DNA from: Mycobacteroides abscessus ATCC 19977
GTDB lineage: Bacteria; Actinomycetota; Actinomycetes; Mycobacteriales; Mycobacteriaceae
Assembly: GCF_000069185.1 (NCBI RefSeq)
Contig: NC_010397.1
Location: 1,984,001-2,048,000, forward strand
Direction: 5' to 3'
Length of the DNA: 64,000 bases
Below the pieces are notes generated by a model. The model made no database searches. It saw only the letters and a program-made list of their open reading frames with translations, and had not been told where the DNA came from. How positions within the stretch are numbered: the first letter of the stretch is position 1; the number at the start of each line of letters is the position of its first letter. The position numbers and the translations under genes are program-made. Below are positions 38,893 to 58,482 of this stretch, one piece after another.

Positions 38893-38949
38893 TCGTGTGG
38901 AGGTGCGGAACTACCCGACTCGCTCTTTCAACCCTGGAAGGGAATTTCC

Positions 38950-42220: not shown

Positions 42221-42249
42221 TTGCGAAGGCTATCGGCCGGTCTTATCGT
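42221..42249 (+). promoter_or_regulatory. Promoter of the ketosynthase/MmpL cluster
   Basis: TTGCGA (42221-42226), a 17-base spacer, TATCGT (42244-42249). Transcription would start near 42256, leaving a 5' leader of about 140 bases before the ACP gene. Confidence 0.5.
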
Positions 42250-42394
42250 TTGTGGTATCAGGTTCACGGCGAGTGATCGCCAAGTGCCAACGTTGTCACC
42301 TGATCGAAGTTCGAATCTATCGCCAAGTGGCAGAGCAGTTTTCGGCTCGCCCGGAGCGAACCAGACGGCAGAGATGAAAGGCACTCTGATACTC

Positions 42395-42877
42395 ATGAGC
42401 AATCCGCTTAGCTATGACGAGGTTCACGCTATTGTGCGTGAGGAATTGGCCGAGGTGCTGGGAATCGAGGCCGATGAAGTGACGACGGCGCCGATGTCTG
42501 ATCAGGGCGTAGAGTCGCTCGACATCGTCGAACTCCGGCGCAATCTGGAGTCGAAATTCCGCGTTACCTTCCCGCGCAGCAACGTTCTGAGCGCTCTTGC
42601 CGATGAGCTTGGGGGTAAGGATCGCGTGTACGACGCGGAAGGTCGAATCACCAAACTGGCTGAAAGTGCGCTGTATCAATCTGCGTTCGGCTACACGGCT
42701 GCCGACTTCCAGGCCGGTGCTTGGCCGCACGAGGTTTCGGGAGCGACGACGACTGCTCATTGGGCGTCCATGGCGTATCGCCTGCTCAATCCTTCGGCTG
42801 GGCAGATCACCGGCGATGAACTTCTGGTCGCCGATGTGCGAGAAGCGCTTACTCAGGCCAACTCGGTTGTCGCATAG
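42395..42877 (+). CDS. Acyl carrier protein with C-terminal extension
   Basis: 160 residues. The first about 80 form an ACP: helix I YDEVHAIVREELAEVLGI, then the phosphopantetheine site GVESLDIVELRRNLE with Ser41, and helix III around NVLSALADELGG. Acyl intermediates would be tethered here. The remaining 80 or so residues (from about residue 85, including FGYTAADFQAGAWPHEVSG) are not part of a normal ACP and I do not recognise them; they could dock a partner enzyme. The ATG at 42395 was chosen for the fold; an ATG seven codons earlier (42374) is possible and neither has a well-spaced Shine-Dalgarno. First gene of the cluster. Confidence 0.8.
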   Translation: MSNPLSYDEVHAIVREELAEVLGIEADEVTTAPMSDQGVESLDIVELRRNLESKFRVTFPRSNVLSALADELGGKDRVYDAEGRITKLAESALYQSAFGYTAADFQAGAWPHEVSGATTTAHWASMAYRLLNPSAGQITGDELLVADVREALTQANSVVA

Positions 42878-42903
42878 CGCCTTTAGCTAAAGCATCATCA
42901 CAG

Positions 42904-44217
42904 ATGGAGCTACAGAAACAGTCACCTGACGACGACGATGTAGTCATCACAGGGATTGGACTTGTCGCGGGGACGGTTACTGATCCCGAGGAGCTATTTT
43001 GGCAGTTGGCTGACGGTGCCTCCTTCATCCGGCAACACCAAGAGCATCGCGATGCTGAGTTGCCCGCGTCGGTTTCTGGGCATGTCGATGAGGAGACCGT
43101 GCGCAAGCTGGCGCGCGCGCTGCCCGAGCAGGCGGCTCGGGTTGGTGCGGCCGGCGTGCTCGGATGGCATGCGGCAGTACAGGCTTGGAAGCGCAGTGGC
43201 CTGCCTAACCTTGCGGGCAGCGACCGGGTCGGCGTGTTTGCCGCGTGCAACAAGCTGGCCTTCGCGCCAGACACGCTCGCGGATCTGTCTCGGCTCTATG
43301 ACCGGCAAGCCGGCACGTTCGATCTCGACGCCTACCTGGACCACCTCGAGGCCGTATCGGATCTTCCGGATGATCTTCTGCAGTTTCTTCCGGATACGAT
43401 GACCGCCTCTCTGGCCGAGTATTTCGGCCTTGGTGGGCCGCTGGTGACGCATGCGGAGGCTTGTGCCGCGGGCGGTGTGGCGATCGGCAGCGGTTACCGG
43501 CATATTCGCTCAGGCGAATTGGATGTGGCGCTGGTCGGCGGCGCCGAGCGGCTGACCACCTACAGCATCGTCACGGCTTTCGCCGCGCTCGGCGCGCTCG
43601 CTCCCACCGGTGACAAACCAAGCGCCGAGATAAGCAGGCCATTCGACAAGGGGCGCAACGGTTTCGTCATCGCGGACGGCGCCGCGTTCCTTGTGCTGGA
43701 GCGACGCTCGCATGCCGAAGCACGTGGTGCACAGGCGCTGGCAAGAGTCGCCGGCTACATGGGTACCGCCGAGGCGGTACGGATAACCTCAAGCGAGCGA
43801 GACGGCGCGACATACGCGGAATGTATGCGGGCCGCGATCGCTGATGCCGGTCTGAGTCCGTCAGACATACATCATGTGAACGCGCACGGGACGGGCACGC
43901 AAGCCAACGACGAGTGCGAAGCTGCAGCCCTGCACTTGGTGTTCGGTGCCGGTGCGGCCTCAATTCCGTTGACCAGCACCAAGTCTTCGCTCGGCCATGG
44001 TTTTGCGGCAAGCGGCGCCATCGAAGCCGTGCTGTCTGCGATGAGCTTGCGTGAACAGATTATTCCGCCCACGCTGAATTTCAGCGAACCGGACGATGTC
44101 ACGAAAGGGCTCGACGTAGTCACCAAGGCCCGGCACCACGAATTTGACACCGTGCTCTCGAACTCCTTCGGCTTTGGCGGCATGAACTGCACACTGATCC
44201 TGGCAAAGGAAGCGTGA
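42904..44217 (+). CDS. Beta-ketoacyl-ACP synthase, catalytically complete (KS1)
   Basis: A 437-residue condensing enzyme of the FabF/KSalpha type. Catalytic triad intact: Cys187 in HAEACAAGG, His328 in VNAHGTGTQAND and His365 in STKSSLGHGFAASGA; the C-terminal GFGG motif is in NSFGFGGMN. It would perform decarboxylative Claisen condensation on the ACP. It is followed after 6 bases by a partner that has lost the triad, the arrangement of KSalpha-KSbeta (chain length factor) heterodimers in type II polyketide systems. Confidence 0.9.
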   Translation: MELQKQSPDDDDVVITGIGLVAGTVTDPEELFWQLADGASFIRQHQEHRDAELPASVSGHVDEETVRKLARALPEQAARVGAAGVLGWHAAVQAWKRSGLPNLAGSDRVGVFAACNKLAFAPDTLADLSRLYDRQAGTFDLDAYLDHLEAVSDLPDDLLQFLPDTMTASLAEYFGLGGPLVTHAEACAAGGVAIGSGYRHIRSGELDVALVGGAERLTTYSIVTAFAALGALAPTGDKPSAEISRPFDKGRNGFVIADGAAFLVLERRSHAEARGAQALARVAGYMGTAEAVRITSSERDGATYAECMRAAIADAGLSPSDIHHVNAHGTGTQANDECEAAALHLVFGAGAASIPLTSTKSSLGHGFAASGAIEAVLSAMSLREQIIPPTLNFSEPDDVTKGLDVVTKARHHEFDTVLSNSFGFGGMNCTLILAKEA

Positions 44218-44223
44218 CCCTCA

Positions 44224-45366
44224 ATGAATCAACGCTTGGCGGTAGGACTGTGTAATCCAGGCTTGTATTCGGCAACCGGGCTTGGCGTGGAGACCGTATG
44301 GGAAGCACTGCGAGTAGGAAAAAAGAACACTGTCCCAAACGAATTCATGTTCGGATCGTGGTCCGAGCTTCCTGAAGTCTTCGCAGTTCCCGATCCAGAT
44401 GCATCGACGCTTGGCATCCACCGAAAAGCGTTGCGCACGACGGTGAAACAAACTCGCTTGGCGATGTATGGGGCCCAACTGGCGCTGAAGGGCATCTCAG
44501 ATGTTGGCCGCCCTGAGTGGGGCGCCTATCTCGGACTGCCCATGGTTCTCAGTCCGCTACTGCCGCAATGTGATACGCCTAACCTTGGCGAGGTGGCGAA
44601 AGATCCCGAAAAGATCGCCGAGCTGTATCTTCGAGATATTCCACCGTTCTTCGCGCTGACAGATTCGAACAACACGGTGGCCGGCCATATCGCAATCCTG
44701 TTTGGGTTGACCGGCCCTACATCGGTGTATTCGCCCTTCTCCGATGCAGGCATGCAGGCACTGATCGAAGGCGCACTCGCAGTTGCCGAGGGCGACTGTG
44801 AGACCGCGTTGGTCGGCGCGGTGAGCCCGTCCATATCCCCGTGGCTGGCATTGCAATACGAAGATCTGGGCTGGAACGGAGCGATCCCAGGCGAAGCGGC
44901 GGCATTCTTTAGCGTCGGACAGTCCAGCGATGTTGTACTCACGGGCTACAGCCGCGGGTTCGCCACCAGTCAGACTCGCCCCGAGGTACTCGCGGAGACA
45001 CTACGAAATGCGTTGCGCGTAGCTGAATTATCGGTTGAGGACGTGGGCTGGATCCTGGCCGATAGTCCATGGACGGACGAGGTAGCCCACGCGCAGCATG
45101 CCGCGATTGGCAGCGTGTTCAACGACCAGGCACCGGTGTTCTCCGCGGAGCAGGCTATCGGAGTAACCGGGCCCGCTCAGCCCTTGGTGCACGTGTTGTT
45201 GGCCCGGCATGGACTGCTGCGCGGGCTACGGCTGCTCCCGGTGAACGGCAACGGCGACGATGCCGTGGCCGAAGAATCACTGTCAAACAATCAGGCGGTT
45301 GTGGTGCTCAGTTGCGGTGTCCAAGGACAGGTTTGCGCTGTCGTAGTGGAAAAGGTGGCGCGATGA
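44224..45366 (+). CDS. Ketosynthase-like protein without catalytic residues (KS2, CLF-like)
   Basis: 380 residues with thiolase-fold landmarks (ALAVAEGDCETALVGAVSP) but no catalytic triad. Alignment to KS1 by the fixed distance to the conserved ALVGA strand puts Ser173 at the cysteine position (SPFSDAGMQAL), Asp in place of the first His (ILADSPWT) and Val in place of the second (AIGVTGPA). It is shorter than KS1 but has no frameshift, and it is coupled to the genes on both sides. Best read as a chain-length-factor-like partner of KS1 or KS3, not a pseudogene. Confidence 0.8.
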   Translation: MNQRLAVGLCNPGLYSATGLGVETVWEALRVGKKNTVPNEFMFGSWSELPEVFAVPDPDASTLGIHRKALRTTVKQTRLAMYGAQLALKGISDVGRPEWGAYLGLPMVLSPLLPQCDTPNLGEVAKDPEKIAELYLRDIPPFFALTDSNNTVAGHIAILFGLTGPTSVYSPFSDAGMQALIEGALAVAEGDCETALVGAVSPSISPWLALQYEDLGWNGAIPGEAAAFFSVGQSSDVVLTGYSRGFATSQTRPEVLAETLRNALRVAELSVEDVGWILADSPWTDEVAHAQHAAIGSVFNDQAPVFSAEQAIGVTGPAQPLVHVLLARHGLLRGLRLLPVNGNGDDAVAEESLSNNQAVVVLSCGVQGQVCAVVVEKVAR

Positions 45367-46652
45367 GCGATGTGAACCAGCCCAGACACGGCAATCGTGT
45401 ACTGGTGACGGGCCTTGGCGTGGTCTGTGGCCTTGGCATGAACTGGCAGTCCATGTGGGACGGATTGGTCAACGGACGCTCGGCAATACAGGCATGGTCG
45501 CCGCCCGATGTTCCGAACTTTCCCGTCGGCTACGCGGCACCGGTAGACGATCAAGCGTTTACCGCGTTGTTTCCCGATTTCGGTGCGCCGATGGAGAAGC
45601 GCACCCGGTTCGGCCTCGCCGCCGCGCAGCAAGCACTGGAGGACGGCGGTGTGACGAATGCCGCGGCACTGGCCCGCGTTGGTGTTTCGATCGCGTCGGA
45701 AATGCCAGAACGTGAATCGGGAGAGTTGTTGAGTGCGTATGTCGATGGCGTCGTGGACTGGAAACGCGTACACGAACAGCAGATCGGCCTTGACCGGTCC
45801 CACGCGCCGTTGGCCACTGGCGATGCCTTGGCGACCGAAATCGCTACGCGCTCCGGCCTAGCTGGTCCCACGCTCAACCTCAATACGGCGTGCGCCGGAG
45901 CAACACATGCACTCGGGCACGGCTTCCGGATGATCCGGCGTGGGGAAACAGACGCCGTGATCGCCGGGGGAGCGGTTAGCCCCCTGAATCTGCCGATAAT
46001 GACGAGTCTGTACCTGCTCGGCGCCCCATCAACATCAAAACTTTACGGCGACCGGCTATGTCGAGCGTTTGACCGCGATCGCAGTGGGATGGTCACCGCC
46101 GAGGGGGCGGCAATGGTGCTGTTGGAGAGCGAGTCGTCGGCACTGGCGCGCGGTGCGCACGTGTACGGCGAGGTGGCGGGATTTGGCAGCTCGCTGGACG
46201 CATATCAGGTGACCGCACCGCACCCGCAAGGAGGCGGGTCGGTTTTGGCGATGCAGCGTGCCCTCGCCGATGCTGGAGTCGCCCCGTCCGAAGTGGGTTA
46301 TGTCAGTGCGCACGGTACATCCACCCCGCTGAGCGACGCGGCCGAGACAGCTGCGATCAAAGAAGTGTTCCGCACCGGTGAGCATTACCGCTCACTCATG
46401 GTCAGCTCTATCAAGACGATGCTGGGTCACATGCTCGCCGCGGCAGGTGCCCAACAGCTGATATCTACGGTGCTGTCGTTACGCGACGGGATCATTCCGC
46501 CGACGCTCAACCTGGAGAACCCCGACCCGGCCTGTGACCTTGACTATGTGCCGGGTCAGGCCCGCAAGGCTGATATCGAGGTGGCAATCAACAACTCGCT
46601 CGGGTTCGGTGGGCTCAACGCTGCTTTGGTGGTACGCCGTTATGACAACTGA
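45363..46652 (+). CDS. Beta-ketoacyl-ACP synthase, catalytically complete (KS3)
   Basis: 429 residues with an intact triad: Cys177 in NTACAGATHAL, His317 in SAHGTSTPLSD and His356 in SSIKTMLGHMLAAAGA, and NNSLGFGGLNAAL at the end. It is closer to canonical FabF than KS1. The ATG overlaps the KS2 stop (ATGA), and its own stop overlaps KS4 by 11 bases. Likely the active half of a second KS/CLF pair with KS4. Confidence 0.9.
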   Translation: MSDVNQPRHGNRVLVTGLGVVCGLGMNWQSMWDGLVNGRSAIQAWSPPDVPNFPVGYAAPVDDQAFTALFPDFGAPMEKRTRFGLAAAQQALEDGGVTNAAALARVGVSIASEMPERESGELLSAYVDGVVDWKRVHEQQIGLDRSHAPLATGDALATEIATRSGLAGPTLNLNTACAGATHALGHGFRMIRRGETDAVIAGGAVSPLNLPIMTSLYLLGAPSTSKLYGDRLCRAFDRDRSGMVTAEGAAMVLLESESSALARGAHVYGEVAGFGSSLDAYQVTAPHPQGGGSVLAMQRALADAGVAPSEVGYVSAHGTSTPLSDAAETAAIKEVFRTGEHYRSLMVSSIKTMLGHMLAAAGAQQLISTVLSLRDGIIPPTLNLENPDPACDLDYVPGQARKADIEVAINNSLGFGGLNAALVVRRYDN

Positions 46653-47931
46653 ACATTCAGGTCAATCAATAGTCGTGACAGGAACCGGCGTGGTGCTGCC
46701 GACGGGTCGTCACATCACACCCCTGTGGGACGCCTGGACTGACGGGAAACCGGCTATCTCGCCGTACCTCGATCCGCTGGTCTCCACGCGCCGGATCACG
46801 CATTTCGGCCATATACCCGCCGAGGTCGTGGAGCAAAGCCGTGAAGCAGTGCCACACAGACAGCGGAAATACGGCACCCCATACACCTTCAACGCGGTGT
46901 TGGCAGCTCAAGATGCGATCGCCGAGGCTGGACCTGGCTGGGCGAGGGTCGAGGACCGTCGACGAGGACTATTTGTCGCACAAGACAATTCCACTACTCC
47001 CAGCATCGGAACCTTCGCTCGAGGACTGACGCAACTGGGTGAGGGCCGCGAAATCGATTTCGGCGCATTGACAAACGAGCTACTCATGAACGGAGGGCTT
47101 GATCCGTTCACCATCATTCATGCCCTTAACAACAACACGCTCGCGCTGGTAAGCATCGTCCATGAGCTCCGCGGTGATTGCGCAGCGCTGGTCCAGGGCG
47201 AATCCGCGGCGGTCACCGCACTGCAACGTGCCACGTTCAGTCTGCGTAACGGGCATTGCGATATCGCACTGGTAGTGGGTGCGGGCAGCTACAACGAACC
47301 ACTCACGCTGGCCGGGCATTACCGCCTGGGCCATCTCAGCAAGGACGCTGGCGGCGATGGCCAGCTGCGGAGCTTCGATAGTGCGCAAGACGGAACGGTC
47401 CTGAGCGAGGGCGCGGTAGCGCTGGTGTTGGAACGCTCGCGAGACGCGACCGCGCGCGGTGCCACACCGCTGGTCCAATTATGTGACACGGTTGTTGTTT
47501 CGGGCAGCCGCGGCGCCGGGCCCGCCCACATCGCTCAGCGTTACGACGACATGCTGCACCAGAACGGGATCGGGACAGAGCAACTCGGCGCGGTGCTGGC
47601 CGACGGCAAGGCGGCCCCCGGCTACGACACCGCCGAGATCGAACTGCTCACCACCTTGTTCAAGGGCAGTGCGATACCCGTATCGACCGTTCGACCGATA
47701 ACCGGCACGCCGGGAGCGGCCGGCCCGCTGGTCGATCTGGCACTCGCCGGGCAAATTTTCACCGAAAGTACTCTGCCGGCAATCACCCATCTCGGGGATC
47801 CACTGTCTGATCAGCTCGAGTTCGTCCAGGGCGGACCCCGAAAGCAGCGGATCGACTCAGTTCTGGGCACCTATACCAACTTCAACGGAATCTCCAGTGC
47901 GGTACTGGCCAAACGTCCAGACGCGGCGTGA
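46642..47931 (+). CDS. Ketosynthase-like protein without catalytic residues (KS4, CLF-like)
   Basis: 429 residues, the same length as KS3. By the same register as KS1, the active-site cysteine is replaced by Glu187 (LVQGESAAVTAL), the first His by Asp (AVLADGKAAPG) and the second by Thr (PITGTPGAAG). Chain length factors of type II polyketide synthases usually carry Gln at the cysteine position, so Glu is a close but unusual variant. GTYTNFNGISSAVL replaces the GFGG end. Immediate overlap with KS3 supports a heterodimer. Confidence 0.8.
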   Translation: MTTEHSGQSIVVTGTGVVLPTGRHITPLWDAWTDGKPAISPYLDPLVSTRRITHFGHIPAEVVEQSREAVPHRQRKYGTPYTFNAVLAAQDAIAEAGPGWARVEDRRRGLFVAQDNSTTPSIGTFARGLTQLGEGREIDFGALTNELLMNGGLDPFTIIHALNNNTLALVSIVHELRGDCAALVQGESAAVTALQRATFSLRNGHCDIALVVGAGSYNEPLTLAGHYRLGHLSKDAGGDGQLRSFDSAQDGTVLSEGAVALVLERSRDATARGATPLVQLCDTVVVSGSRGAGPAHIAQRYDDMLHQNGIGTEQLGAVLADGKAAPGYDTAEIELLTTLFKGSAIPVSTVRPITGTPGAAGPLVDLALAGQIFTESTLPAITHLGDPLSDQLEFVQGGPRKQRIDSVLGTYTNFNGISSAVLAKRPDAA

Positions 47932-47970
47932 CCATCAGGACCACTTGAGCATCACAAACCAGGGAGAAAC

Positions 47971-48741
47971 GTGTCTTTGAGCGGCAAAGAGTTTGAGGGT
48001 CAGGTCGCGCTTGTCACCGGGGCCTCACGCGGAATCGGACGTTCCATCGCGTTGGCGCTTGCCGAACATGGGGCGGATATTGCGTTGCACTATGGAAACT
48101 CGAAACCAGCAGCAGAAGAGGTCGCCGAGAAAATATCCGCGTTGGGTAGACGGGTCCTCCTCTGTCAGGGCGACATAGCCGATCCGGCAGTACCCGAGCT
48201 ACTAGCAGATACCGTGCACGCCGAATTCGGCCGGATCGATGTCCTCGTGAACAATGCGGGCACCCACGGAGCCGGACTGCTCCTTGACATCGCCCCGGAC
48301 TATCTCGAGGAGACGGTGGCCACCAATCTGCTGGGCCCCATCCGGATGACGAAAGCTGTCGTCGCACACATGCTGGGCCAGCGATACGGACGAATCATCA
48401 ATATCTCCTCGGTGGCCGCCGACAAGCCCGACAGCGGTCAATCTACTTATGCCGCAACCAAAGGTGGCTTGGAGTCGTTTACCAAAGCCATAGCGGTCGA
48501 GTTCGCGTCGCGAAACATCATCTCGAACGCGGTGGCACCAGGCGTTGTCTACACCGACATGGCAGAGATCACGCGTACACACGTTCCAGCCACCTTCGAA
48601 CGCTTGAAGGCCCAGATACTGGCCAAAGACTTCGCGAAGCCGGAAATAGTCGCCGATGCCGTCCTGTACCTCGCGAGCCCCCACAACACCTACATCACGG
48701 GCGAGGTTCTACATATCGATGGCGGGTACAAGATGAAATAG
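47971..48741 (+). CDS. 3-oxoacyl-ACP reductase (FabG-like SDR)
   Basis: A 256-residue short-chain dehydrogenase: cofactor loop VTGASRGIGRS (residues 15-25), NNAG at 94-97, catalytic Ser in NISSVAAD, Tyr160 and Lys164 in STYAATKGG. The residues after the first beta strand suggest NADPH. In this context it would reduce the beta-keto group formed by the KS pairs. GTG start after an AGGGAGAAAC Shine-Dalgarno. Confidence 0.88.
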   Translation: MSLSGKEFEGQVALVTGASRGIGRSIALALAEHGADIALHYGNSKPAAEEVAEKISALGRRVLLCQGDIADPAVPELLADTVHAEFGRIDVLVNNAGTHGAGLLLDIAPDYLEETVATNLLGPIRMTKAVVAHMLGQRYGRIINISSVAADKPDSGQSTYAATKGGLESFTKAIAVEFASRNIISNAVAPGVVYTDMAEITRTHVPATFERLKAQILAKDFAKPEIVADAVLYLASPHNTYITGEVLHIDGGYKMK

Positions 48742-48785
48742 CGCTCAAACCCGAAGAGCGCGAACGCATCAGGCATTCTCAAACA

Positions 48786-48815
48786 GCGTCCGCCGGTTTC
48801 ATCACCGACGGACGC
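48786..48815 (+). promoter_or_regulatory. Hairpin between the ketoreductase and thioesterase genes
   Basis: GCGTCCG/CGGACGC outer stem and CGGT/ACCG inner stem around a 6-base loop, in a 96-base gap. No T run follows, so it may adjust relative expression or RNA stability rather than end the transcript. Confidence 0.35.
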
Positions 48816-48837
48816 CTCGACAGACTAAGGAGGACAG

Positions 48838-49587
48838 GTGCGCAGGACCGATGAGTTACTGCCTGGCAATCCTTGGCTGCGCAGGCTCCGCGACGGGAAC
48901 GGTGCGACGCGGGTGATCTGTTTCCCTCACGCAGGCGGTTCCGCCAGTTACTTCAGGCGATTGGCGAAGATGCTGCCGGCCGACACCGAAGTGCTCGCCG
49001 TGCAATATCCGGGACGGGGAAATAGATTGCGCGAGCAGCCGATAGCGTCAGTGCCCCTGCTCGCAGAAGGCATTGCATCGGCCCTGCCCGCCAGCGACAA
49101 GCAAGACGTACTTTTCGGTCACAGCCTCGGTGGTCACATCGCGTTCGAAGTGGCGCAGAGGCTGCCCGTTCGCAAACTTGTGGTGTCCGGGATAGTGGCA
49201 CCGTCCAAGGTGGTCGATCTCGGTTACCGCCTGCTCAACGAAGCCGAAGGAATCGAAAGAATAGCGGCTTTGGGCGGCCTGCCACCCGAGATCCTCGACG
49301 ACCCTTCGGCCCTCAGCGCTCTTTTCCCGGTGCTGCGTAGCGATTTCACTGCCGGCGAGACATACACTCCACCGCCGGATGCGACCGTCGCCTGCGATAT
49401 CACCGCGCTCATCGGTGACAAGGATGTCTTGGCCCCACTGGAGCGGGTGAGTTCGTGGCGCGAACACACCCGCGCCAATTTCGATCTGCAGGTATTCCGC
49501 GGCGGTGGGCATTTCTACTTGGAAGACCACATCGACGAAGTAAGCGCCTGTCTCATCCAGGTGTGCAATGTCAGCCCAATCATCTAG
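48838..49587 (+). CDS. Type II thioesterase
   Basis: A 249-residue alpha/beta hydrolase of the GrsT/TesA type: ICFPHAGGSASYFRRLAK near residue 27, VQYPGRGNR near 55, nucleophile Ser96 in FGHSLGGH, and catalytic His in RGGGHFYLEDH near residue 225. Such enzymes clear wrongly loaded carriers or release products in polyketide and peptide assembly; mycobacterial TesA serves phthiocerol lipid synthesis. The GTG follows AAGGAGGACAG. Confidence 0.88.
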   Translation: MRRTDELLPGNPWLRRLRDGNGATRVICFPHAGGSASYFRRLAKMLPADTEVLAVQYPGRGNRLREQPIASVPLLAEGIASALPASDKQDVLFGHSLGGHIAFEVAQRLPVRKLVVSGIVAPSKVVDLGYRLLNEAEGIERIAALGGLPPEILDDPSALSALFPVLRSDFTAGETYTPPPDATVACDITALIGDKDVLAPLERVSSWREHTRANFDLQVFRGGGHFYLEDHIDEVSACLIQVCNVSPII

Positions 49588-49593
49588 GCGGCG

Positions 49594-50589
49594 ATGCAAA
49601 AAGCTAGTGCCGGAGAATATCTGACCCCACTGGGAAAGCGAGGAAGTGTGTACAACTACATCGTCACGTCCCCTGGGCAAGGTGTGCAGAAGCCGGGCAT
49701 GCTCGATCCTTGGCTGACCCTGTCCGCTGCGCGCGATCGCATCGCGATCTGGTCTGACGCGGTCAAGTTCGACCTGGTGACCGCCAGCAGAGATGAGAAC
49801 TCCTTGCGTGATACCGCCGTCGCTCAGCCCGTCATCATCGCGGCGGCCCTGCTGTCACTGAGCGTGCTGCGCGAGAAAGTCGATATCTCCGGAGACGGCG
49901 CACTGTTCGCCGGCCACTCGGTGGGTGAGCTCGCTGCCGGGGTTGGGGCGGGCTATCTGACTGATGAGGCCGCGCTGACGTTGGCCGGCGTGAGGGGCGG
50001 CGCGATGTCGTCGGCATGCGCCCTGGCCGCCACCGGTATGGCCGCGGTGATGCCGACGAAGAGGGGCGGCGCGTCAGATGACGAGATTGTGGCTAAAACG
50101 CATGAACATGGCCTCTCGACGGCCAACCGCAACGGCTGCAACCAGTTCGTCGTCGCCGGGCCCCTCGACGCTGTCGAACGTTTTGCCGACGCGCCACCCG
50201 AGGGCATGCGCGTCATGAAACTGGATGTGGCGGGTGCCTTTCACACCTCGGCGATGGACACCGCGATATCGCCGTTCGCAGAAGCAGTGAACAGCTGTCC
50301 GGTTTTGACCCCGTCGTCCCCCATGATCGGCAATCGTGACGGCGCGATCATCGAAGGTCCCATGGACTTCAAAAAGCGGTTGATCGCCCAGATCAATTCG
50401 GTGGTCCGTTGGGATCTGTGTGCCGCCACGATCGCTTCGGCAGCAACCGCCGACACCGTCGTCATCGAACTTGCGCCGAGTGGACCGCTGACCCGTCTCG
50501 CCGAACGTCTCAACGCAGAATTTCAGACCGTTGCCATCCGGGAGCCAGGGGACGTGGAGTTGCTTTCCGGCGAGTTTGCGATTGATTAG
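49594..50589 (+). CDS. Malonyl-CoA:ACP transacylase (FabD-like)
   Basis: 331 residues. SPGQGVQKPGML at the start of the fold, nucleophile Ser109 in AGHSVGELAAG, and the active-site His in DVAGAFHTSAMD near residue 215. It would load malonyl units on the cluster ACP. The ATG at 49594 is 6 bases after the thioesterase stop; a GTG at 49648 would begin directly before the conserved IVTSPGQG strand and is an alternative. Confidence 0.87.
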   Translation: MQKASAGEYLTPLGKRGSVYNYIVTSPGQGVQKPGMLDPWLTLSAARDRIAIWSDAVKFDLVTASRDENSLRDTAVAQPVIIAAALLSLSVLREKVDISGDGALFAGHSVGELAAGVGAGYLTDEAALTLAGVRGGAMSSACALAATGMAAVMPTKRGGASDDEIVAKTHEHGLSTANRNGCNQFVVAGPLDAVERFADAPPEGMRVMKLDVAGAFHTSAMDTAISPFAEAVNSCPVLTPSSPMIGNRDGAIIEGPMDFKKRLIAQINSVVRWDLCAATIASAATADTVVIELAPSGPLTRLAERLNAEFQTVAIREPGDVELLSGEFAID

Positions 50590-50646
50590 CCGAGTTCCGT
50601 GCGAACACTATGCGTAACAGGGCGAATAGCCGAGAAGGGAGGCAAC

Positions 50647-51936
50647 GTGACAGACACGCGACCGCATCAGGACACGGTGGACGCGCCTGGCGAGCCAATT
50701 CGTCCACTTAGCCGCCTGGAGACATACTTCACTTTCGGGTTTGGTCATTTCGGCGGGCAGTCAATGCTTATCTCGGGGGATTTAGATATCGAGGCGCTGA
50801 ATGACACTTGTATTGAGATGCAGCTCCGCCACGAATCCCTGCGAAGCATCATCCGTAAGAATGATCAAGTCCCCGAGTTTGTGGCGACGCACCGACCGCC
50901 CAAATCGATCCGCGTATTCGAGGGAGAAGACCTTGGGGCCCGGTCCACTGGGCGTGAGGCCGTATTCGATCAGACGCAGCAGCTTTTCTACGTCGATCTG
51001 CTGCTCGGGGACGGCCAGGCCCGCGTAACGTTCTTCGTCCACCACTCCATTGCGGACGGTCGCCACGGATCTGCGATCCTCATCGAGTTTTGGAGCCTTT
51101 ACGTTCAGCGCGTCGAGGAAGGGCAGTTCCCGCCGATCCTCACCCAAAAATTCCCACAGTCGGGGGAGTACTTCCTGAACCGCACTCAGTATCCGGGCGC
51201 GGATCCGAGCGTGAAGGCGGATGAAGTATTGCGTGTGCCGCTGTGGGATGAGGCCGCGCTTGCCCAGAAACTCCCGCCCCCTCGGGAGCCCGCGCTCGCC
51301 AAACAGATGACGTTGGAAAAACTCGGCAGAGCAAGCCTCGCCCGCCTCGGCAATATCGAAAGCATCTCGATCAACGCGCTTGTGTCCGCAGCTCTGATTC
51401 GTGCGCATGTCCGCGCTGGCGACCCAGTCCCACTGTATTTCTATCCGGTAGATCTTCGCGACTGTGTAACGCCTCCGGTTGCCCCCACCGAAGCGACCAA
51501 CTTGCTCTCCAACGCATGGTTCGGCGATGTTGAGATCGGGCCGGACCTCGTCACACTCGCCAGAAAGATACATGTCCAATTCGACAGGGACTTAGCGGAC
51601 GGCACAATTCACCGAACGCGCGTCAGAAATGAGCCAACGAAGCTTCTCGCTGATAAGTCTTTTGGTGGCGCAATTCATGCCACCCAGCTAGGTCGAATTC
51701 GTGTTCCCCGCCTACCGGGGAATCTGGTCGTAGACGACATCACGTCCAGTCATGCATCGGCATTGGGGCCAGCTATTTATACGTTCTTGTACGGTCGGGA
51801 AGTTTCGGTGTACACGATTGACTCGCTGAATCAACGACTGCGGGTGGGTTTCCTAGCCGGAAGTTACGAAAAGAGCGATGAGCTTCTTGCGTACATCGAA
51901 GACGAACTGACCGCGGCGATAGACGCTCGCATCTGA
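50647..51936 (+). CDS. PapA/condensation-domain-type acyltransferase
   Basis: A 429-residue protein of the chloramphenicol acetyltransferase/condensation superfamily. The catalytic HHxxxDG motif is HHSIADG at residues 132-138; the N-terminal half also has PLSRLETYFTFG, as in Pap proteins. In mycobacteria PapA enzymes esterify trehalose, diols or glycopeptidolipids with polyketide acyl chains. It probably transfers the acyl chain from the ACP to an acceptor. GTG start after AGGGAGGCAAC. Its stop overlaps mmpS by one base. Confidence 0.83.
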   Translation: MTDTRPHQDTVDAPGEPIRPLSRLETYFTFGFGHFGGQSMLISGDLDIEALNDTCIEMQLRHESLRSIIRKNDQVPEFVATHRPPKSIRVFEGEDLGARSTGREAVFDQTQQLFYVDLLLGDGQARVTFFVHHSIADGRHGSAILIEFWSLYVQRVEEGQFPPILTQKFPQSGEYFLNRTQYPGADPSVKADEVLRVPLWDEAALAQKLPPPREPALAKQMTLEKLGRASLARLGNIESISINALVSAALIRAHVRAGDPVPLYFYPVDLRDCVTPPVAPTEATNLLSNAWFGDVEIGPDLVTLARKIHVQFDRDLADGTIHRTRVRNEPTKLLADKSFGGAIHATQLGRIRVPRLPGNLVVDDITSSHASALGPAIYTFLYGREVSVYTIDSLNQRLRVGFLAGSYEKSDELLAYIEDELTAAIDARI

Positions 51937-52394
51937 TGGCGTTCCCTCGAGGGCTCGGTGCGTTCGGGCGCAAGGTCATCCGACACGGCTGGTTGGTCGT
52001 GGTGATAGCGGTCGTGGCCTCGCTTGCGTCCGTATCCGTGATGAAGGTGCGCGCGCTATCTGCCCCGTCGGGGCCGGTGGTGAGTCCGAAGGGCGCGCCG
52101 AAGCTCCCGTCGTTCGCTCCCAAGCATGTGGTCTACATGGTGTTCGGGGAATCCGCGGGCACAGGGACGCTCACTTACCTAGACGTCGACAGCAGACCAC
52201 ACCGTGTCGACTTCACGACGTTGCCTTGGACGCACGAAGAAGTCACGACGCGTACGTCGATGTTGGCCAATCTCATGGCCCAGTCAACGGGAGATGAACT
52301 CGGTTGCAGGATCATCGTCAACGGCGAGGTTCGCGACGAACAGGTCCAGAGTCGCGAGCAGGGATCGGTCGCATGCAAGGTGAAGTCGGCATGA
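51936..52394 (+). CDS. MmpS-family membrane protein
   Basis: 152 residues: a short cytoplasmic N-terminus, one transmembrane helix (GWLVVVIAVVASLASVSVM, about residues 18-36) and a beta-rich extracytoplasmic domain (VVYMVFGESAGTGTLTYLDVD near 66, CRIIVNGEVRDEQ near 123). This is the MmpS plan. MmpS proteins support MmpL transporters in lipid and siderophore export, and the gene precedes mmpL as usual. Confidence 0.85.
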   Translation: MAFPRGLGAFGRKVIRHGWLVVVIAVVASLASVSVMKVRALSAPSGPVVSPKGAPKLPSFAPKHVVYMVFGESAGTGTLTYLDVDSRPHRVDFTTLPWTHEEVTTRTSMLANLMAQSTGDELGCRIIVNGEVRDEQVQSREQGSVACKVKSA

Positions 52395-52418
52395 CCACCG
52401 CACGAGACGACGTGACAC

Positions 52419-55298
52419 GTGGGTAACAAGCATGTGGGGCGCGACCGCGGCGAAAGGCGCCCTTTCGTCGCGCACGCTGTTCGGGTGCTCGCGATCCCGA
52501 TCGTCCTCTTCTGGGTCGGCGTCGCGGTGCTGCTCAGCGTGTTGGTCCCCAAGCTCGATGGCGTGACAAAGCAACACGCGGGGCCGATGGTTCCCCTGGA
52601 TGCGCCTTCGCAGCGCGCAATGCTGCACATTGGTGAGAAGTTTCAAGAATCGACTTCCACGAGCCTCGCCTACATCCTGCTGGAGACCGAGGGCCGAATA
52701 CTGGGGGATGCCGACCACAAGTACTACGACGAGTTAATCCGTTTGCTCGACGCGGACAAGCAGCATGTTCAGTTCATCATGAACATGTGGGGTAAGCCGA
52801 TCACGGCCGCGGGCAGTCAGAGCCCCGACAACAAGGCCGCCTACGTGATGCTGCGTTTGGTCGGCGATATCGGCGAGGCCGCCGCCAACGAGTCCACCAT
52901 CGCACTGCGCAAGACGGTGCAAGATACTCTTCAACGCACTCCGCCTCCGCCCGGACTACGTGTATACGTCTCGGGGGCGGCGCCGCTGTCTGCGGACCTG
53001 CTTGACGCCGGCGACAAAAGTATGAAGCGGGTGCTGCTTTTTACGATTGCCGTCATCATCATCATGCTCGTCCTGGTTTACCGCTCCATTGCATGCGTAG
53101 TGCTGATATTACTCACCGTCGCCTTCGAATTCACGGTATCCAACGGCATTGTTTCCTTTTTCGTGGTGCACAACATCATTGGCATATCGACATTCGCGAC
53201 CAGCATGGTCGAATCACTTATCATCGCGGCCGGAACAGATTACGGCATCTTTCTGCTCGGCAGGTATCACGAGGCACGCAATGCGGGCGAGGATCGGGAC
53301 CGTGCGTTTTACACCACGTTTCACGGCGTATCGCACGTCATTCTGGGGTCGGGGCTCACCATCGCGGGGGCATGTCTATGCCTCGGTTTTGCGCGACTTG
53401 GCTACTTCAACACGATGGGGCCGGCCTGCGCCATCGCGATGTTGGTGACGGTCGCGGCAGCTTTGACGCTCGGCCCGGCCCTGCTGGCAATTGCCAGTAA
53501 ATTTGGCCTTCTCGACCCGAAGCAGACCGGGCAATCCCGGGGATGGCGCAGGGTAGGCACGATCGTCGTGCGCTGGCCAAAGCCGGTCCTCGTTGCCTCA
53601 AGCGCAGCAGTGCTGGTGGGGGCCGTCTTTCTGCCGTCCTACCGGGTGAGCTATAACGAGCGGGCCTTCCAGCCGGTGAACACTCCAGCTAACGCCGGAT
53701 TCATGGCCTCGGACCGACATTTTGCGGGCGGGAAACTGAACTCGGAAATGCTCTTGATCGAGTCCGATCACGATATGCGAAACCCCGCCGATTTCATCTC
53801 ACTCGATCATGTCGCCAAGACCATCTTCCACACTCCGGGGATTGCCCAAGTTCAAGGCATCACCCGGCCGGAGGGCCGTCCGATGGAGCGCGCGTCAATC
53901 GCCAACATACTGGCGGGGCAAGGCAGCAGCAGTGGTCAACAGCTGCCATTTACCGAGAACCAAGTGGCAGATTTAGACAACCAAGTGGCCGTCATGGATC
54001 ACACCATCTCGATCATGCAGACAGTTATTGGGCTCATGGATCAAATGACGCAACTCACCCATGAGATGGTGGGGACAATGGAGGAGATGAAGGCACTCGC
54101 TGACCAGGTGGAAGTAAACATCAGTGCCGTCGACGATTTCCTCAGACCTATTAAGAACTATTACTACTGGGAACCGCACTGCGCGGACATCCCCATTTGC
54201 TGGATGGGGCGGTCGATGTTCGAGTCGATGGACAGCATCGACGGGATGACGGCACTAACAGCGGAGGCGCTGGCCTCCATGCAGGTCATGGATCAGCTGC
54301 TGCCCCGCATGCTTGCGCAGACACGCATGGCATTAAGTGACATGACCATCATGCGAGGGATGATGGTCAAGTCGCGCGGCACACAGGCGCTGAACACCTA
54401 CACTGCGGCCGATGACGCAAACGACATGATCGATATCGGTCAGGATTTTGACGATTCTCGTAATGACGACCTCTTCTATGCGCCGAAATATATCTTCAGT
54501 AATACTGACTTTCAGGTCGCTCTACGGTTTCTTGTCTCGCCGGACGGCACCGCGGCCAGGTTCATCATCAACCATGACGGTGAGGCCCTGAGCCCCGAGG
54601 GGGTGGCCCATGTTAATGCCATCGAAAAGGCCGCCTATGAGGGGCTGAAAGGCACATCTCTCGCCGGGGCGAAGATCTACCTCGGAGGCTCGGCCTCGAA
54701 TTATCGAGACATCGAACAATATGTAAAGTCCGATCTGCTGATCGCGGCTATCGCCTCATTCACCTTGATCTTCGTCATAATGCTGATCATCACGAGGAGC
54801 CTCATCGCCGCGTGCACCATTATCGGCACAGTGGCGTTCTCCTTCTCGGGAGCATTCGGGTTGGGCATATTGATCTGGCAACACATAATTGGCCTCAACC
54901 TGCACTGGATGGTCCTCCCACTCACCTTTATCCTCTTGGTCGCGGTGGGCTCAGATTACAATCTTCTGTTAATCGCACGAATGAAGGAAGAATTACAGGG
55001 CGGAATCCAGACTGGAATCATACGGTCGGTGGGATCGACCGGTGGCGTTGTGACAGCCGCTGGTTTGGTTTTCGCGTTCACCATGCTGTCCATGGTGCCG
55101 AACGATCTACGTGCCATCTCGCAAGTGGGCTCGATTATCTGCGTAGGCCTCCTGCTCGACACTTTGATTGTGCGTTCGTTCATTGTCCCAGCAATCGCCA
55201 GGATTTTGGGCCCATGGTTCTGGTGGCCGCGGGTCGTGCGTTGGCGCCCGGCGCATGCATCTGGGGCGGTGCTCACGAGCGCGCCGAAAGGAACGTGA
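52419..55298 (+). CDS. MmpL-family RND transporter
   Basis: 959 residues, the length of MmpL4/5/10-type proteins, with 11-12 transmembrane helices in two halves. Proton-relay Asp-Tyr pairs are in AAGTDYGIFLLGRYHE (first half) and AVGSDYNLLLIARMKEE (second). The second periplasmic region holds a Met-rich, coiled-coil-like stretch of about 150 residues (for example MDQMTQLTHEMVGTMEEM), as in the MmpL4/5 group. It would export the lipid made by this cluster across the inner membrane. GTG start. Confidence 0.92.
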   Translation: MGNKHVGRDRGERRPFVAHAVRVLAIPIVLFWVGVAVLLSVLVPKLDGVTKQHAGPMVPLDAPSQRAMLHIGEKFQESTSTSLAYILLETEGRILGDADHKYYDELIRLLDADKQHVQFIMNMWGKPITAAGSQSPDNKAAYVMLRLVGDIGEAAANESTIALRKTVQDTLQRTPPPPGLRVYVSGAAPLSADLLDAGDKSMKRVLLFTIAVIIIMLVLVYRSIACVVLILLTVAFEFTVSNGIVSFFVVHNIIGISTFATSMVESLIIAAGTDYGIFLLGRYHEARNAGEDRDRAFYTTFHGVSHVILGSGLTIAGACLCLGFARLGYFNTMGPACAIAMLVTVAAALTLGPALLAIASKFGLLDPKQTGQSRGWRRVGTIVVRWPKPVLVASSAAVLVGAVFLPSYRVSYNERAFQPVNTPANAGFMASDRHFAGGKLNSEMLLIESDHDMRNPADFISLDHVAKTIFHTPGIAQVQGITRPEGRPMERASIANILAGQGSSSGQQLPFTENQVADLDNQVAVMDHTISIMQTVIGLMDQMTQLTHEMVGTMEEMKALADQVEVNISAVDDFLRPIKNYYYWEPHCADIPICWMGRSMFESMDSIDGMTALTAEALASMQVMDQLLPRMLAQTRMALSDMTIMRGMMVKSRGTQALNTYTAADDANDMIDIGQDFDDSRNDDLFYAPKYIFSNTDFQVALRFLVSPDGTAARFIINHDGEALSPEGVAHVNAIEKAAYEGLKGTSLAGAKIYLGGSASNYRDIEQYVKSDLLIAAIASFTLIFVIMLIITRSLIAACTIIGTVAFSFSGAFGLGILIWQHIIGLNLHWMVLPLTFILLVAVGSDYNLLLIARMKEELQGGIQTGIIRSVGSTGGVVTAAGLVFAFTMLSMVPNDLRAISQVGSIICVGLLLDTLIVRSFIVPAIARILGPWFWWPRVVRWRPAHASGAVLTSAPKGT

Positions 55299-55303
55299 TT
55301 CCT

Positions 55304-56533
55304 ATGCCTGCCGCCGAATCACAGCAGGATGACACCGCACACAGAATCCGTGCCGAGTCCCGAGAGTTTCGGATCGCGGCTGTGGGTCTGCTCCTGGCCT
55401 CGATGATCGGCCCCGCACAGCTGTATTGCATTCAGGGAATTCTGCCGCAGATCGCGCAGGGACTGCATATCTCTGAGGGTGACAGCAGACTGGTTTTCCT
55501 GGCTGCCTTTGCCGGTTTCGCCGTCGGATTGATCCCCATCAGTCTATTGTCTGAACGCTATGGTCGGCGCAGCATTCTCTTGATGTCGTCAACGCTTGCG
55601 ACGTTGATCTGCCTACTTCTGGTGTTCTGCCATGACCTCACGGAAATCGTCTTACTCAGAGGGCTCCAAGGCGTCCTCTTGGCCGGTGTTTCCGCCATTT
55701 TGATGGCATACATAGGGGAGGAGTTCGAGCCCCCGGCCGTTACCCCCGCGATGGGGATCTACGCTGCCGGAAATGCTCTCGGGTCGCTCTTGGGTCAAAT
55801 GCTGCCAGCTTGGATCGTGGGGGGTACGGGTTCATGGAGGCTGGCGCTTGGCGTGCTGGCCGTGCTCTTGCTTGTGGTCGTCATGATTTCTGGCATGACA
55901 CTCCCGCGTTCGAAATTCTTCGTACCCAGCGCGATTTCCTACATCAAAGAATCTGGACTCTTCCTCTCTCACCTTTCAAACCGCCGGTTACTCGTCATCT
56001 ACCTGCTGGTTTTTTGCTTCATGGGCGCGATTATTTCTATATTCAATGCCTTGCCCTTTAGAATGGAATCGCCACCGTTCAATATATCCCCGAGTGTGTA
56101 CGGCACATTTTTTCTGGTTATCCTGGCGGGCGTTTTCGCCGCGAAGGCCTCGGGCGCCGTGGCCGCGAGAATCGGAATCAGAATAACGCTGCTGCTGTCT
56201 GTTGTCTTGATGATGGCCGGAGTTGCGCTTCTAGCTATTCCCACTGTCTGGATCATTGTTATCGGAGCAGCGCTTGTCACCGCAGGCGCTTTTGCCGGTT
56301 ACACGTGCCTGACTAGTCTGTCGGCAAAAATCGCGGATAGAGGTAGGGCTCAGGCATCGGCGCTTTTTCTCGCGTCGAGCTTCACGGGGAGCGCGATGTT
56401 GGGACTAATCGGTAGCCGTGTGCTCACTGATACAGGGTGGAACGGCCTATTGGCATACATCAGCGGGCTGATGGGGCTTGGTTTCTTTTTGGCGCTGACC
56501 GTCCGCGACACAACATCCGAGGACACCGAGTAG
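55304..56533 (+). CDS. Major facilitator superfamily transporter
   Basis: 409 residues with 12 transmembrane helices. The loop between helices 2 and 3 carries the MFS motif as LLSERYGRRSILLMSS, and the N-terminal half has GILPQIAQGLHISEGDSRLVF as in the drug-efflux (YajR/MdtG-like) branch. It may export the product or an intermediate, or give self-protection. A GTG at 55295 overlapping the mmpL stop is an alternative start to the ATG at 55304. Codon use is noticeably more A/T-rich than in the dcw genes. Confidence 0.87.
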   Translation: MPAAESQQDDTAHRIRAESREFRIAAVGLLLASMIGPAQLYCIQGILPQIAQGLHISEGDSRLVFLAAFAGFAVGLIPISLLSERYGRRSILLMSSTLATLICLLLVFCHDLTEIVLLRGLQGVLLAGVSAILMAYIGEEFEPPAVTPAMGIYAAGNALGSLLGQMLPAWIVGGTGSWRLALGVLAVLLLVVVMISGMTLPRSKFFVPSAISYIKESGLFLSHLSNRRLLVIYLLVFCFMGAIISIFNALPFRMESPPFNISPSVYGTFFLVILAGVFAAKASGAVAARIGIRITLLLSVVLMMAGVALLAIPTVWIIVIGAALVTAGAFAGYTCLTSLSAKIADRGRAQASALFLASSFTGSAMLGLIGSRVLTDTGWNGLLAYISGLMGLGFFLALTVRDTTSEDTE

Positions 56534-56546
56534 AAGGTAGGAAATC

Positions 56547-57527
56547 GTGACCAGCCCCGTTGACCCGCTCCTGATGTCAGTCCTCGAGGCGAGCCCAGCG
56601 GTACAGCTCGATCGGCCCGAGGATTTGACCCTGGCACGTGAGTCCCGCCGCCACGCTGCCCCTAGCGATGCGCAGTTGCCCACGGTGGGTCGTGTGAAGG
56701 ACACCTCGATTCCTGTCACCGATGCACCCCCTATTGCGGTGCGCATCTACTGGCCAGCGGGCTTTGAAAGCGCCGGAGAACTCCCACTTGTCCTCTACTA
56801 TCACGGCGGCGGTTTCGCGTTGGGCAGTATCGATACTCACGACTGGGTGGCACGGTCGATATGTGCACATATCGAAGCGGTGGTGGTGTCGGTGGATTAC
56901 CGACTCGCACCGGAAAACCCCTACCCAGCCGCTGTCGATGACGCATTTGCCGCACTCAGCTGGGCGGCAGAACACGCCCCCGAATTGGGGGCGGACCCAG
57001 CCAGAATCGCCGTAGCTGGCGATTCTGCCGGTGGCAACCTCGCCACCGTGGCCGCTCAGCTGGCCGAAATCCGCGGCGGCCCACATCTTAAGTTTCAACT
57101 GCTCTGGTATCCGGGCACCACCAGCGATCTTTCCTTGCCGTCGGTCGTCGAGAATGCCGACGGTCCGGTCCTTTCCCGGGACATCATGAGGATCTTTGGC
57201 CAGGCATATCTCGGTGAGCTATCGGAAACCGCTGACCCGACAGCATTACCGTTCACCGTTGCGCCGGTCAACGGGAAGCTCGATGGTCTGCCCCCCGCAT
57301 ATATCGCCACCGCGCAACACGACCCGCTTCGAGACGACGGCAAAATCTACGCGACGCGACTGGCAGATGCGGGGGTGCCGGTCCAGCTTCGCAACGCCGA
57401 CACTCTGGTCCACGGCTACCTTGATTTCGCCAGGATTGTTCCGGCCGCGAATGAGGAGTTTCGGCTTTCCCTCGACGCTTGTAAAACCGCGTTGCAGGCA
57501 TCTCCTCGCCCGAAAGCCGGGCCCTGA
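56547..57527 (+). CDS. HSL-family alpha/beta hydrolase (esterase)
   Basis: 326 residues: oxyanion-hole HGGG at 86-89, nucleophile Ser160 in AGDSAGGN, Asp in TAQHDPLRDDG near residue 255 and His in LVHGYLDF near 285, a complete hormone-sensitive-lipase-type triad. Relatives in mycobacteria are Lip-family esterases. In the cluster it may trim or release the acyl product. GTG start after TAGGAAATC. Last gene of the rightward set. Confidence 0.88.
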   Translation: MTSPVDPLLMSVLEASPAVQLDRPEDLTLARESRRHAAPSDAQLPTVGRVKDTSIPVTDAPPIAVRIYWPAGFESAGELPLVLYYHGGGFALGSIDTHDWVARSICAHIEAVVVSVDYRLAPENPYPAAVDDAFAALSWAAEHAPELGADPARIAVAGDSAGGNLATVAAQLAEIRGGPHLKFQLLWYPGTTSDLSLPSVVENADGPVLSRDIMRIFGQAYLGELSETADPTALPFTVAPVNGKLDGLPPAYIATAQHDPLRDDGKIYATRLADAGVPVQLRNADTLVHGYLDFARIVPAANEEFRLSLDACKTALQASPRPKAGP

Positions 57528-57869
57528 GATCAGAATTCGAGCAAGTTCCACGTTGAGGCCGCAGCTGAGCAGGGTGGCTTGGCGGGTGCTGGGGAGGCCA
57601 GCCGGGGCAGGACATGCCGAGGTCCGTGGGCAAGCCCGGCGCCCCGCGGTCTCGATTACGGCTCGCTTAAACCAGCGAGAGTCGTATCGCTGGGTGTGAT
57701 CGCGGCTTCGCCGCTCAACACACTTCATCGGCGCGGAAATGAACACGAGCGTTCATTTCGGTCGCCTCAGTCTGTGTCCGAGGGGGGACTTGTCCGTCTA
57801 CGACACGGGTCGTGGTCTGGCGATTGGGGCGCTGACCGCTTCGGTCAAGCACCGGTCCACCTTTTTCGC
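57528..57869. other. Intergenic region with a large palindrome
   Basis: About 340 bases between the convergent esterase and CMD genes. It holds GAAATGAAC (57736-57744), 6 bases, GTTCATTTC (57751-57759): perfect 9-bp arms resembling a TetR-type operator. Open frames run across it in both directions but none shows recognisable similarity. It may contain the remains of a lost gene. Confidence 0.45.
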
Positions 57870-58448: not shown

Positions 58449-58482
58449 GGGTGGCCCTCTCTGTTGAACCTCTGCACCGCCG

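Follow-up and report, generated by a model that had tools for sequence, protein, structure and literature searches.

A run of 13 genes in Mycobacteroides abscessus ATCC 19977, in print mostly as a mycolate operon, raises the question of which product it makes. The genes occupy 42395-57527 of the 64,000-nucleotide stretch of NC_010397.1 that we analysed (positions 1,984,001 to 2,048,000, here called the window), all on the + strand, from the ATG of an acyl carrier protein (ACP) gene at 42395 to the stop codon of an esterase gene at 57527. They correspond in order and kind to MAB_2027-MAB_2039 in table 1 of PMC6839843, the source of the locus tags used here. Our answer, to which we give a probability of about 0.6, is that the locus encodes a reducing type II polyketide synthase (PKS) like those of the kec cluster of Pseudomonas and the stm cluster of Streptomyces, refitted for release of its chain as an ester and for export through an MmpL protein. 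A preliminary description of this DNA had listed 13 close or overlapping rightward genes, and all are present where it placed them. Every gene has at least one Pfam match above the curated cut-off, and at six of the 12 junctions the genes overlap or lie no more than 6 bases apart, the widest gap being 96 bases. The gene order is as follows (KS, ketosynthase; CLF, chain length factor, the inactive KS partner; SDR, short-chain dehydrogenase/reductase; MCAT, malonyl-CoA:ACP transacylase; MFS, major facilitator superfamily).

42190..57531, + strand: conserved cassette of 15.3 kb, a single blastn block common to four other Mycobacteroides-group genomes
42190..42394, + strand: conserved upstream stretch inside the shared block, presumably the promoter region (predicted role)
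42395..42877, + strand: ACP, MAB_2027, with a conserved C-terminal extension of ~85 residues; PF00550
42904..44217, + strand: KS1, active ketosynthase, MAB_2028 ('KasB' in papers); Cys/His/Lys/His; 100/100 clade with stm-type KS1
44224..45366, + strand: CLF1, inactive KS partner, MAB_2029; catalytic columns S/D/E/V; 100/100 clade with stm-type CLF1
45363..46652, + strand: KS2, active ketosynthase, MAB_2030 ('KasA' in papers); Cys/His/Lys/His; 100/100 clade with stm-type KS2
46642..47931, + strand: CLF2, inactive KS partner, MAB_2031; catalytic columns E/D/R/T; 100/100 clade with stm-type CLF2
47971..48741, + strand: ketoreductase (KR), SDR family, MAB_2032; PF13561/PF00106, YxxxK by eye
48838..49587, + strand: type II thioesterase, MAB_2033; PF00975, GHSLGG by eye
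49594..50589, + strand: MCAT-like protein, MAB_2034; PF00698
50647..51936, + strand: PapA5-type acyltransferase, MAB_2035, with HHSIADG; NF006787 PapA5 subfamily
51936..52394, + strand: MmpS, MAB_2036; PF05423
52419..55298, + strand: MmpL of the MmpL4/MmpL5 type, MAB_2037; PF03176
55304..56533, + strand: MFS transporter, MAB_2038, ATG at 55304; PF07690
56547..57527, + strand: esterase/lipase, MAB_2039 (LipH in papers); PF07859 (Abhydrolase_3)

The PKS parts are separate proteins, and the locus contains no large multidomain type I Pks. The preliminary description saw a discrete type II KS/CLF system next to a PapA-type acyltransferase and an MmpS/MmpL pair. The Pfam and NCBIfam matches bear out this central claim, and the two pairs of active and inactive ketosynthases that it named are real: in an alignment of 49 KS-type proteins, the second and fourth genes retain the catalytic Cys, His, Lys and His, and the third and fifth have lost all four positions. 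The kec/stm alkaloid clusters likewise combine two active KSs with two catalytically dead partners. No Pfam match to a dehydratase, cyclase, aromatase or acyl-AMP ligase domain was found among the 13 genes, and an aromatic type II PKS was set aside for lack of cyclase/aromatase matches. On sequence comparison, the core is almost certainly a kec/stm-type reducing twin-KS/CLF type II PKS.

The comparison rests largely on Streptomyces. A CLF1 profile run against a collection of 84,980 species, which may omit near records, found 15 loci, one in M. franklinii and 14 in Streptomyces. Each of the four KS-type proteins groups with its own Streptomyces counterpart in the 100/100 clades listed above, in a tree that took in seven of the 14 Streptomyces loci and left out the other seven. 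From the S. nigrescens loci, duplicate reading frames and those without a KS were also dropped, and of reading frames longer than 470 amino acids only the stretch that aligns with KS2 was kept. In this tree, whose deep branches are long, two S. nigrescens KSa/KSb pairs of assumed aromatic type fall outside the locus clades. The order ACP-KS1-CLF1-KS2 is kept in all 14 Streptomyces loci, and is followed in 13 of them by CLF2, a fusion gene, KR, a second SDR and a thioesterase (one locus, L046, stops within KS2). Identity to the Streptomyces set is 58-62% for KS1, 64-65% for KS2, 53-55% for CLF2, 44-50% for CLF1 (best segment) and 58-61% for KR, and the thioesterase is 40-43% identical to the collinear thioesterase in the 13 loci (in two pieces in L051). 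The best NCBIfam match of KR is 3-oxoacyl-ACP reductase, at 224.4 bits and so below the cut-off of 297.75, and among Pfam models a generic SDR one, titled enoyl-reductase, fits it best. A protein search with CLF1, which scored only the 7997 candidates sharing the most words with it, returned 28 proteins: 21 at 95-97% identity (the named ones from Mycobacteroides), one at 66%, one from a Segniliparus metagenome-assembled genome (MAG) at 61%, one from S. noursei at 49% and four at 38-41%. Within the family, 113 of 401 genomes hold a CLF1 match at 1e-3, the best outside its own genome being 3.3e-11 at 26% identity.

The ACP is 43-46% identical to eight of the 14 Streptomyces ACPs, C-terminal extension included. 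In its predicted model (pLDDT 82) the extension forms three further helices of 12-20 residues each, for which Foldseek found no match in the PDB at E ≤0.001; only the ordinary ACP half is familiar. The Streptomyces ACPs (loci L040-L053) carry a CxxC...CxxC insertion in this extension that does not occur in the Mycobacteroides ACPs. An unusual predicted structure has also been noted for the P. putida ACP PP_2777 (PMC12490732).

Two described systems give the core its likely chemistry. According to a review, the stm cluster of S. nigrescens HEK616 has an aminotransferase and two KS/CLF sets among its nine genes and yields streptoaminals on heterologous expression. One of our 14 loci, L045, is from this strain and has nine genes of the stm kind together, which we infer from strain and gene content to be the stm cluster itself. 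Its fusion gene encodes 961 amino acids with a class III aminotransferase at the N-terminal side, and a paper on such fusions assigns a C-terminal half of this kind to an acyl-ACP reductase. The ACP, KS1, CLF1, KS2, CLF2, KR and thioesterase of the Mycobacteroides cassette are related to those of stm (streptoaminals and 5-alkyl-tetrahydroquinolines) and stand in the same order, but the cassette is without both the aminotransferase/reductase fusion and the second SDR, and has instead the MCAT, PapA5-type, MmpS, MmpL, MFS and esterase genes. The kec (koreenceine) cluster of P. koreensis, known to us from its description, shares the ACP, the two KS/CLF pairs and reductases; it has two reductases, three membrane genes for which its authors propose export, and a fusion, KecF, which, unlike anything in the cassette, is proposed to form an amine that cyclises. 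The proposed pathway runs from a C10 acyl starter and two malonyl units through reductive release and transamination to cyclisation. The 179 kec-like clusters reported are mostly from Pseudomonas, with some partial ones in Xenorhabdus and Streptomyces; mycobacteria are not named in the part of that report available to us, nor in the lineage table of PMC10829540. In P. putida KT2440, PP_2777-2784 matches koreenceine in antiSMASH (PMC12490732). The 2009 genome paper of M. abscessus noted that MAB_2027-2032 is syntenic with a P. putida F1 region for 'biosynthesis of phytotoxic peptides and antibiotics', which would be the kec-type cluster of KT2440.

A further set of this type turned up among plasmids. 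CLF1 matched 37 plasmid records (36 from Pantoea and one from Photobacterium), at less than 26% identity in the 20 rows listed; the one Pantoea record examined holds a lone FabF, and the Photobacterium replicon holds a kec/stm-type set. There, ACP, KS1, CLF1, KS2 and KR lie at 29-46% identity (the ACP measured against that of S. nigrescens), and a shortened CLF2 gives a partial match. The fusion (42%) and the SDR (44%) are there too, LolA-like and MMPL-family genes come next, and the Photobacterium stretch yielded no thioesterase. This set (Photobacterium sp. DA100, L190:11010-25117), collinear with the cassette in its synthase genes and likewise furnished with an MMPL gene, at its end, is unannotated. 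A viral origin of the cassette was rejected, there being no CLF1 relative among viral contigs.

The release step is where the cassette departs from its relatives. All 13 Streptomyces stretches that are not truncated, and Photobacterium as well, have the fusion and the second SDR. No match to the aminotransferase/acyl-ACP-reductase fusion was found at 1e-3 in the window or in the four Mycobacteroides loci with their flanks. The cassette lacks a defining feature of the alkaloid clusters and is not classed as one. A koreenceine-like alkaloid could still arise if a stand-alone aminotransferase and reductase from other parts of the genome added the amine, and the aminotransferase half of the fusion does have 16 matches in the whole M. 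abscessus genome. These are only 20-38% identical, though, and none extends beyond residue 556 of 961, leaving the reductase half (residues 557-961) without a counterpart; the second-SDR query finds KR alone in the window, and in the four relatives an extra SDR of 32-33% identity that lies on the opposite strand, 2.7-4.5 kb outside the cassette. An alkaloid would also leave the PapA and MCAT genes unexplained, and we consider this route improbable.

Conversely, MCAT, PapA, MmpS and MAB_2037 have no match at 1e-10 in the 14 Streptomyces stretches or the Photobacterium stretch, although the latter does hold an MMPL gene by Pfam. The acyltransferase scores above the Pfam cut-off for PapA_C and below it for Condensation. 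It reaches 557.5 bits on the PapA5 subfamily model NF006787 (cut-off 396) and stays below the cut-offs of three narrower PapA5/phthiocerol equivalog models. In HHSIADG, the second His, the Asp and the Gly are invariant across seven aligned rows, and the first His is not. The solved PapA5 structure 1q9j matches it at a sequence E of 7e-34 and, from a predicted model with pLDDT 75, at Foldseek TM scores of 0.75-0.84. PapA5 takes acyl chains directly from their carrier protein. A protein search with PapA gave six proteins, three of them from the Segniliparus MAG; these three and the CLF1 homologue of that MAG lie on contigs sized 30348 each, which suggests that the PapA link is common to a second genus. 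Three distant CLF1 relatives lie on contigs sized like those of fusion proteins (19445, 31031 and 10467; 120 of the 772 fusion matches were listed). Separately, we noted a PapA allele only 79% identical to ours, in 33 member sequences labelled M. abscessus, beside a 98% M. chelonae type; there may be divergent versions of the locus within M. abscessus.

Among solved relatives, MmpL4 and MmpL5 match MAB_2037 best, along almost its whole length, and MmpL3 far less well. The MmpS gene adjoins this MmpL4/5-type gene, whose export function is predicted. Solved complexes of MmpL5 with AcpM are on record. Known mycobacterial lipid loci that join a type I PKS to PapA and MmpL proteins are those for phthiocerol dimycocerosates (PDIM), sulfolipid, polyacyltrehaloses (PAT) and trehalose polyphleates. 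The cassette resembles them in having a PapA5-type acyltransferase and an MmpL next to a polyketide synthase, but its chain would be built by separate type II proteins instead of a large type I Pks, and its MmpL is of the MmpL4/5 type with its own MmpS. A P726L change in MAB_2037 has been reported in a late cystic-fibrosis isolate, the gene there being named mmpL4 of the glycopeptidolipid (GPL) locus.

We therefore propose the following mechanism, by analogy with kec for chain building. A fatty acyl starter and malonyl units would be joined on MAB_2027, probably one unit per KS/CLF pair, and a single reduction by KR would leave a hydroxy/oxo triketide-like chain. Since a reductase or transaminase for making an amine is missing, MAB_2035 would transfer the chain to an alcohol as an ester, or acylate a hydroxyl of the chain; MAB_2033 would edit stalled ACP; and MAB_2036/2037 would export the neutral amphiphilic ester, perhaps helped by the MFS transporter and the esterase. 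An acylated, MmpL-exported product is thus what the gene content predicts. That MAB_2035 itself performs the ester release we regard as an even chance. With the same PKS core, the thioesterase or a spontaneous cyclisation might instead free a hydroxy acid, a lactone or a 4-hydroxy-6-alkyl-pyrone-like product, with PapA acylating afterwards. The thioesterase is found in the Streptomyces and Mycobacteroides sets alike, and one KR would be expected to leave one carbonyl, allowing cyclisation. On the other hand, the thioesterase also occurs where the fusion is expected to release the chain and so is probably not the releaser there, and PapA is among the most conserved cassette proteins (97.7-98.6% identity to the four relatives). 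We judge this alternative possible but rather unlikely.

How does ester release by a kec/stm-type synthase square with the published label? Horizontal origin was noted early, in 2009, and the mycolate label came with later papers. PMC6839843, on amoebae and macrophages, treats MAB_2027-2039 as a mycolate operon with MAB_2028 as KasB and MAB_2030 as KasA. MAB_2028, 2030 and 2032 are up in biofilm, read as mycolic elongation, and mycolates are longer there, a correlation (PMC8066798). PMC10913753 places the Lsr2-repressed MAB_2037 in a mycolate synthesis operon, and PMC12098619 reads the rise of MAB_2028-2031 in P. aeruginosa co-culture as mycolic acid synthesis. In a cystic-fibrosis sputum condition, kasA and kasB (in a passage without tags) and MAB_2029, 2031 and 2034 are down, read as mycolate pathway (PMC4974804). 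Elsewhere, MAB_2035 is among the proteins changing in a medium whose code we expand as nitrogen-limited (PMC11980559).

Several of these papers describe an elongation operon of the type II fatty acid synthase (FAS-II), which works with KasA, KasB, AcpM and FabD and shares with the cassette the superfamilies of KS, ACP, KR and MCAT. The cassette proteins nevertheless fail the family cut-offs. On the NCBIfam KasA/KasB equivalog model (cut-off 560 bits), KS1 scores 232.9 and KS2 222.2, whereas other proteins of the same genome reach 729.1 (at 1.876 Mb) and 752.2 (at 4.69 Mb); the former adjoins an AcpM of 167.7 bits (cut-off 146) and a FabD-like protein, and MAB_2027 scores 22.5 on the AcpM model. 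KS1 and KS2 are only 32.8-33.6% identical to these Kas proteins, which sit elsewhere in the tree, apart from the locus KS clades. Two dead CLFs in the locus and the occurrence of KS1 (at 1e-80) in only five of 396 genus genomes, its own included, also argue against a role in mycolate elongation. So does regulation: under MmpL3 inhibition MAB_2027-2038 goes up and inhA, kasA, acpM, fabD and other mycolate genes go down (PMC12930390). We rejected the KasA/KasB identity on cut-offs and tree, and find a mycolate operon the least credible of the explanations weighed here. The preliminary description had called the pattern unfamiliar in mycobacteria. The locus itself is already in print, and its chain-building half is orthologous to the Streptomyces stm type and kin to Pseudomonas kec, so the kind of core is known; what stands is that we found no characterised mycobacterial product, and that among the matches listed from the openly available literature no paper treats MAB_2027-2039 as a type II PKS. 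What is new here is that a kec/stm-type core is combined with an acyltransferase and an MmpL module of mycobacterial kind.

A decaying or silent relic could also account for a locus of this kind, and repression of MAB_2037 by Lsr2 (PMC10913753) and the low GC of the cassette (59.9%, against 64.7% in the remaining window) fit such a state. We think it very improbable. In all 52 pairwise comparisons (13 genes with four partners), omega is 0.03-0.24; 49 of the 52 are free of internal stops, and in the remaining three, all of the esterase, the compared segment continues beyond a stop close to the 3' end; catalytic residues are kept; and regulated expression is reported in six papers. The cassette is under purifying selection. 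Protein identity to the four partners is 82.6-99.3%, and collinearity in four other genomes, high protein identity and low omega place the locus far beyond chance.

Several points weigh against ester release and export by one 13-gene unit. In amoebae at 4 h, MAB_2027-2034 fall together (-2.09 to -3.80), which supports co-expression of the eight synthesis genes, but MmpS (-1.16) and MmpL (-0.68) fall less and MAB_2035, 2038 and 2039 show no change (PMC6839843). These data speak weakly against a single response, and the 13 genes may not be one unit; co-expression is seen for the first eight genes in amoebae and for MAB_2027-2038 under MmpL3 inhibition. Synonymous divergence (dS) is uneven as well: lowest for PapA and MmpS (0.04-0.11), 0.11-0.41 for the remaining nine genes as far as MmpL, and much higher for the MFS and esterase genes (0.52-0.78, as against 0.04-0.41 across the other 11). 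This points to a mosaic history, and the MFS transporter and esterase may stand outside the common function. MAB_2034 is under the cut-off on both fabD (138.1 bits) and malonate_mdcH (153.4 bits), and the FabD-like protein next to the true AcpM also misses the FabD cut-off (171.3 vs 260.9). PapA could be a tailoring enzyme; the same-contig argument for Segniliparus is indirect; the release-module genes are absent from Streptomyces within the fetched stretches; the deep joins of KS and CLF classes in the tree rest on long branches and are unsure; and the literature search turned up neither a product or substrate nor a mutant of the locus.

The boundaries of the cassette bear on its origin. One blastn block runs from 42189/42190 to 57498-57531 at 92.2-92.5% identity in four of four other genomes, so the conserved unit extends 205 bases further left than the 42395 first noted, and nothing else in 28001-64000 of the window matches the fetched stretches of these relatives at 1e-20. 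The four relatives carry the cassette at one common chromosomal site, different from that in M. abscessus, where their site is empty (at 1.41 Mb, with the left and right flank matches 159 bases apart). In one non-carrier, G442, the flank matches lie 792 bases apart at that site; in the others examined the right flank was not reached or not seen within the fetched 1.5 kb. The left flank of the site is present at ≥83% over ~4 kb or more in 11 of 312 genomes scored (84 of the 396 genus genomes were unscored), and five of the 11 have KS1. The distribution in Mycobacteroides, which the preliminary description had proposed to survey together with that in other mycobacteria, is thus patchy. Different sites, an empty site and patchy presence indicate that the cassette is mobile on an evolutionary scale, and it looks like a horizontally acquired relative of Streptomyces/Pseudomonas antibiotic assembly lines. 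No direct repeats of at least 10 bases were found between 42101-42260 and 57481-57850, and we therefore claim no mechanism of transposition. We did not take low dS to prove recent transfer, since in these genomes the FAS-II region is 90-93% identical, near the 92% of the cassette.

The flanks have their own histories. To the right, 57774-63500, with a zinc alcohol dehydrogenase, a thiolase-like protein and a TetR protein, matches at 98% in two other Mycobacteroides-group genomes, at a place other than that of their cassette; it is 69% identical in M. franklinii and reduced to a 45-base match in G475. From these matches it appears to be a second, separately exchanged segment beside the cassette. 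To the left, 36987-41676 (amidase by eye, nucleobase permease and an agmatine-deiminase-like protein, PF04371) gives only short 70-77% patches in the four relatives, which places the cassette in a variable part of the M. abscessus chromosome.

More tentatively than for the assembly line itself, we suggest that mycobacteria here have their first natural family of type II polyketides. The product would be a secreted, ester-linked polyketide free of nitrogen; it would have arisen by a swap of release enzymes, from aminotransferase/reductase to PapA5-type acyltransferase, would be exported by MmpS/MmpL4-5, and would be used against other microbes instead of serving as a mycolate or wall lipid. Such a use is suggested by the reported rise of the KS/CLF genes in P. 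aeruginosa co-culture. If the locus makes a separate polyketide, the mycolate readings in five papers, on amoebae and macrophages, sputum, biofilm, Lsr2 mutants and co-culture, would need revising, and the question left open in PMC12930390 (2026), whether MAB_2027-2038 makes another, non-mycolate membrane lipid, would gain a specific chemistry. That an assembly line seems to have traded one release step for another is also relevant to the diversification of polyketide products.

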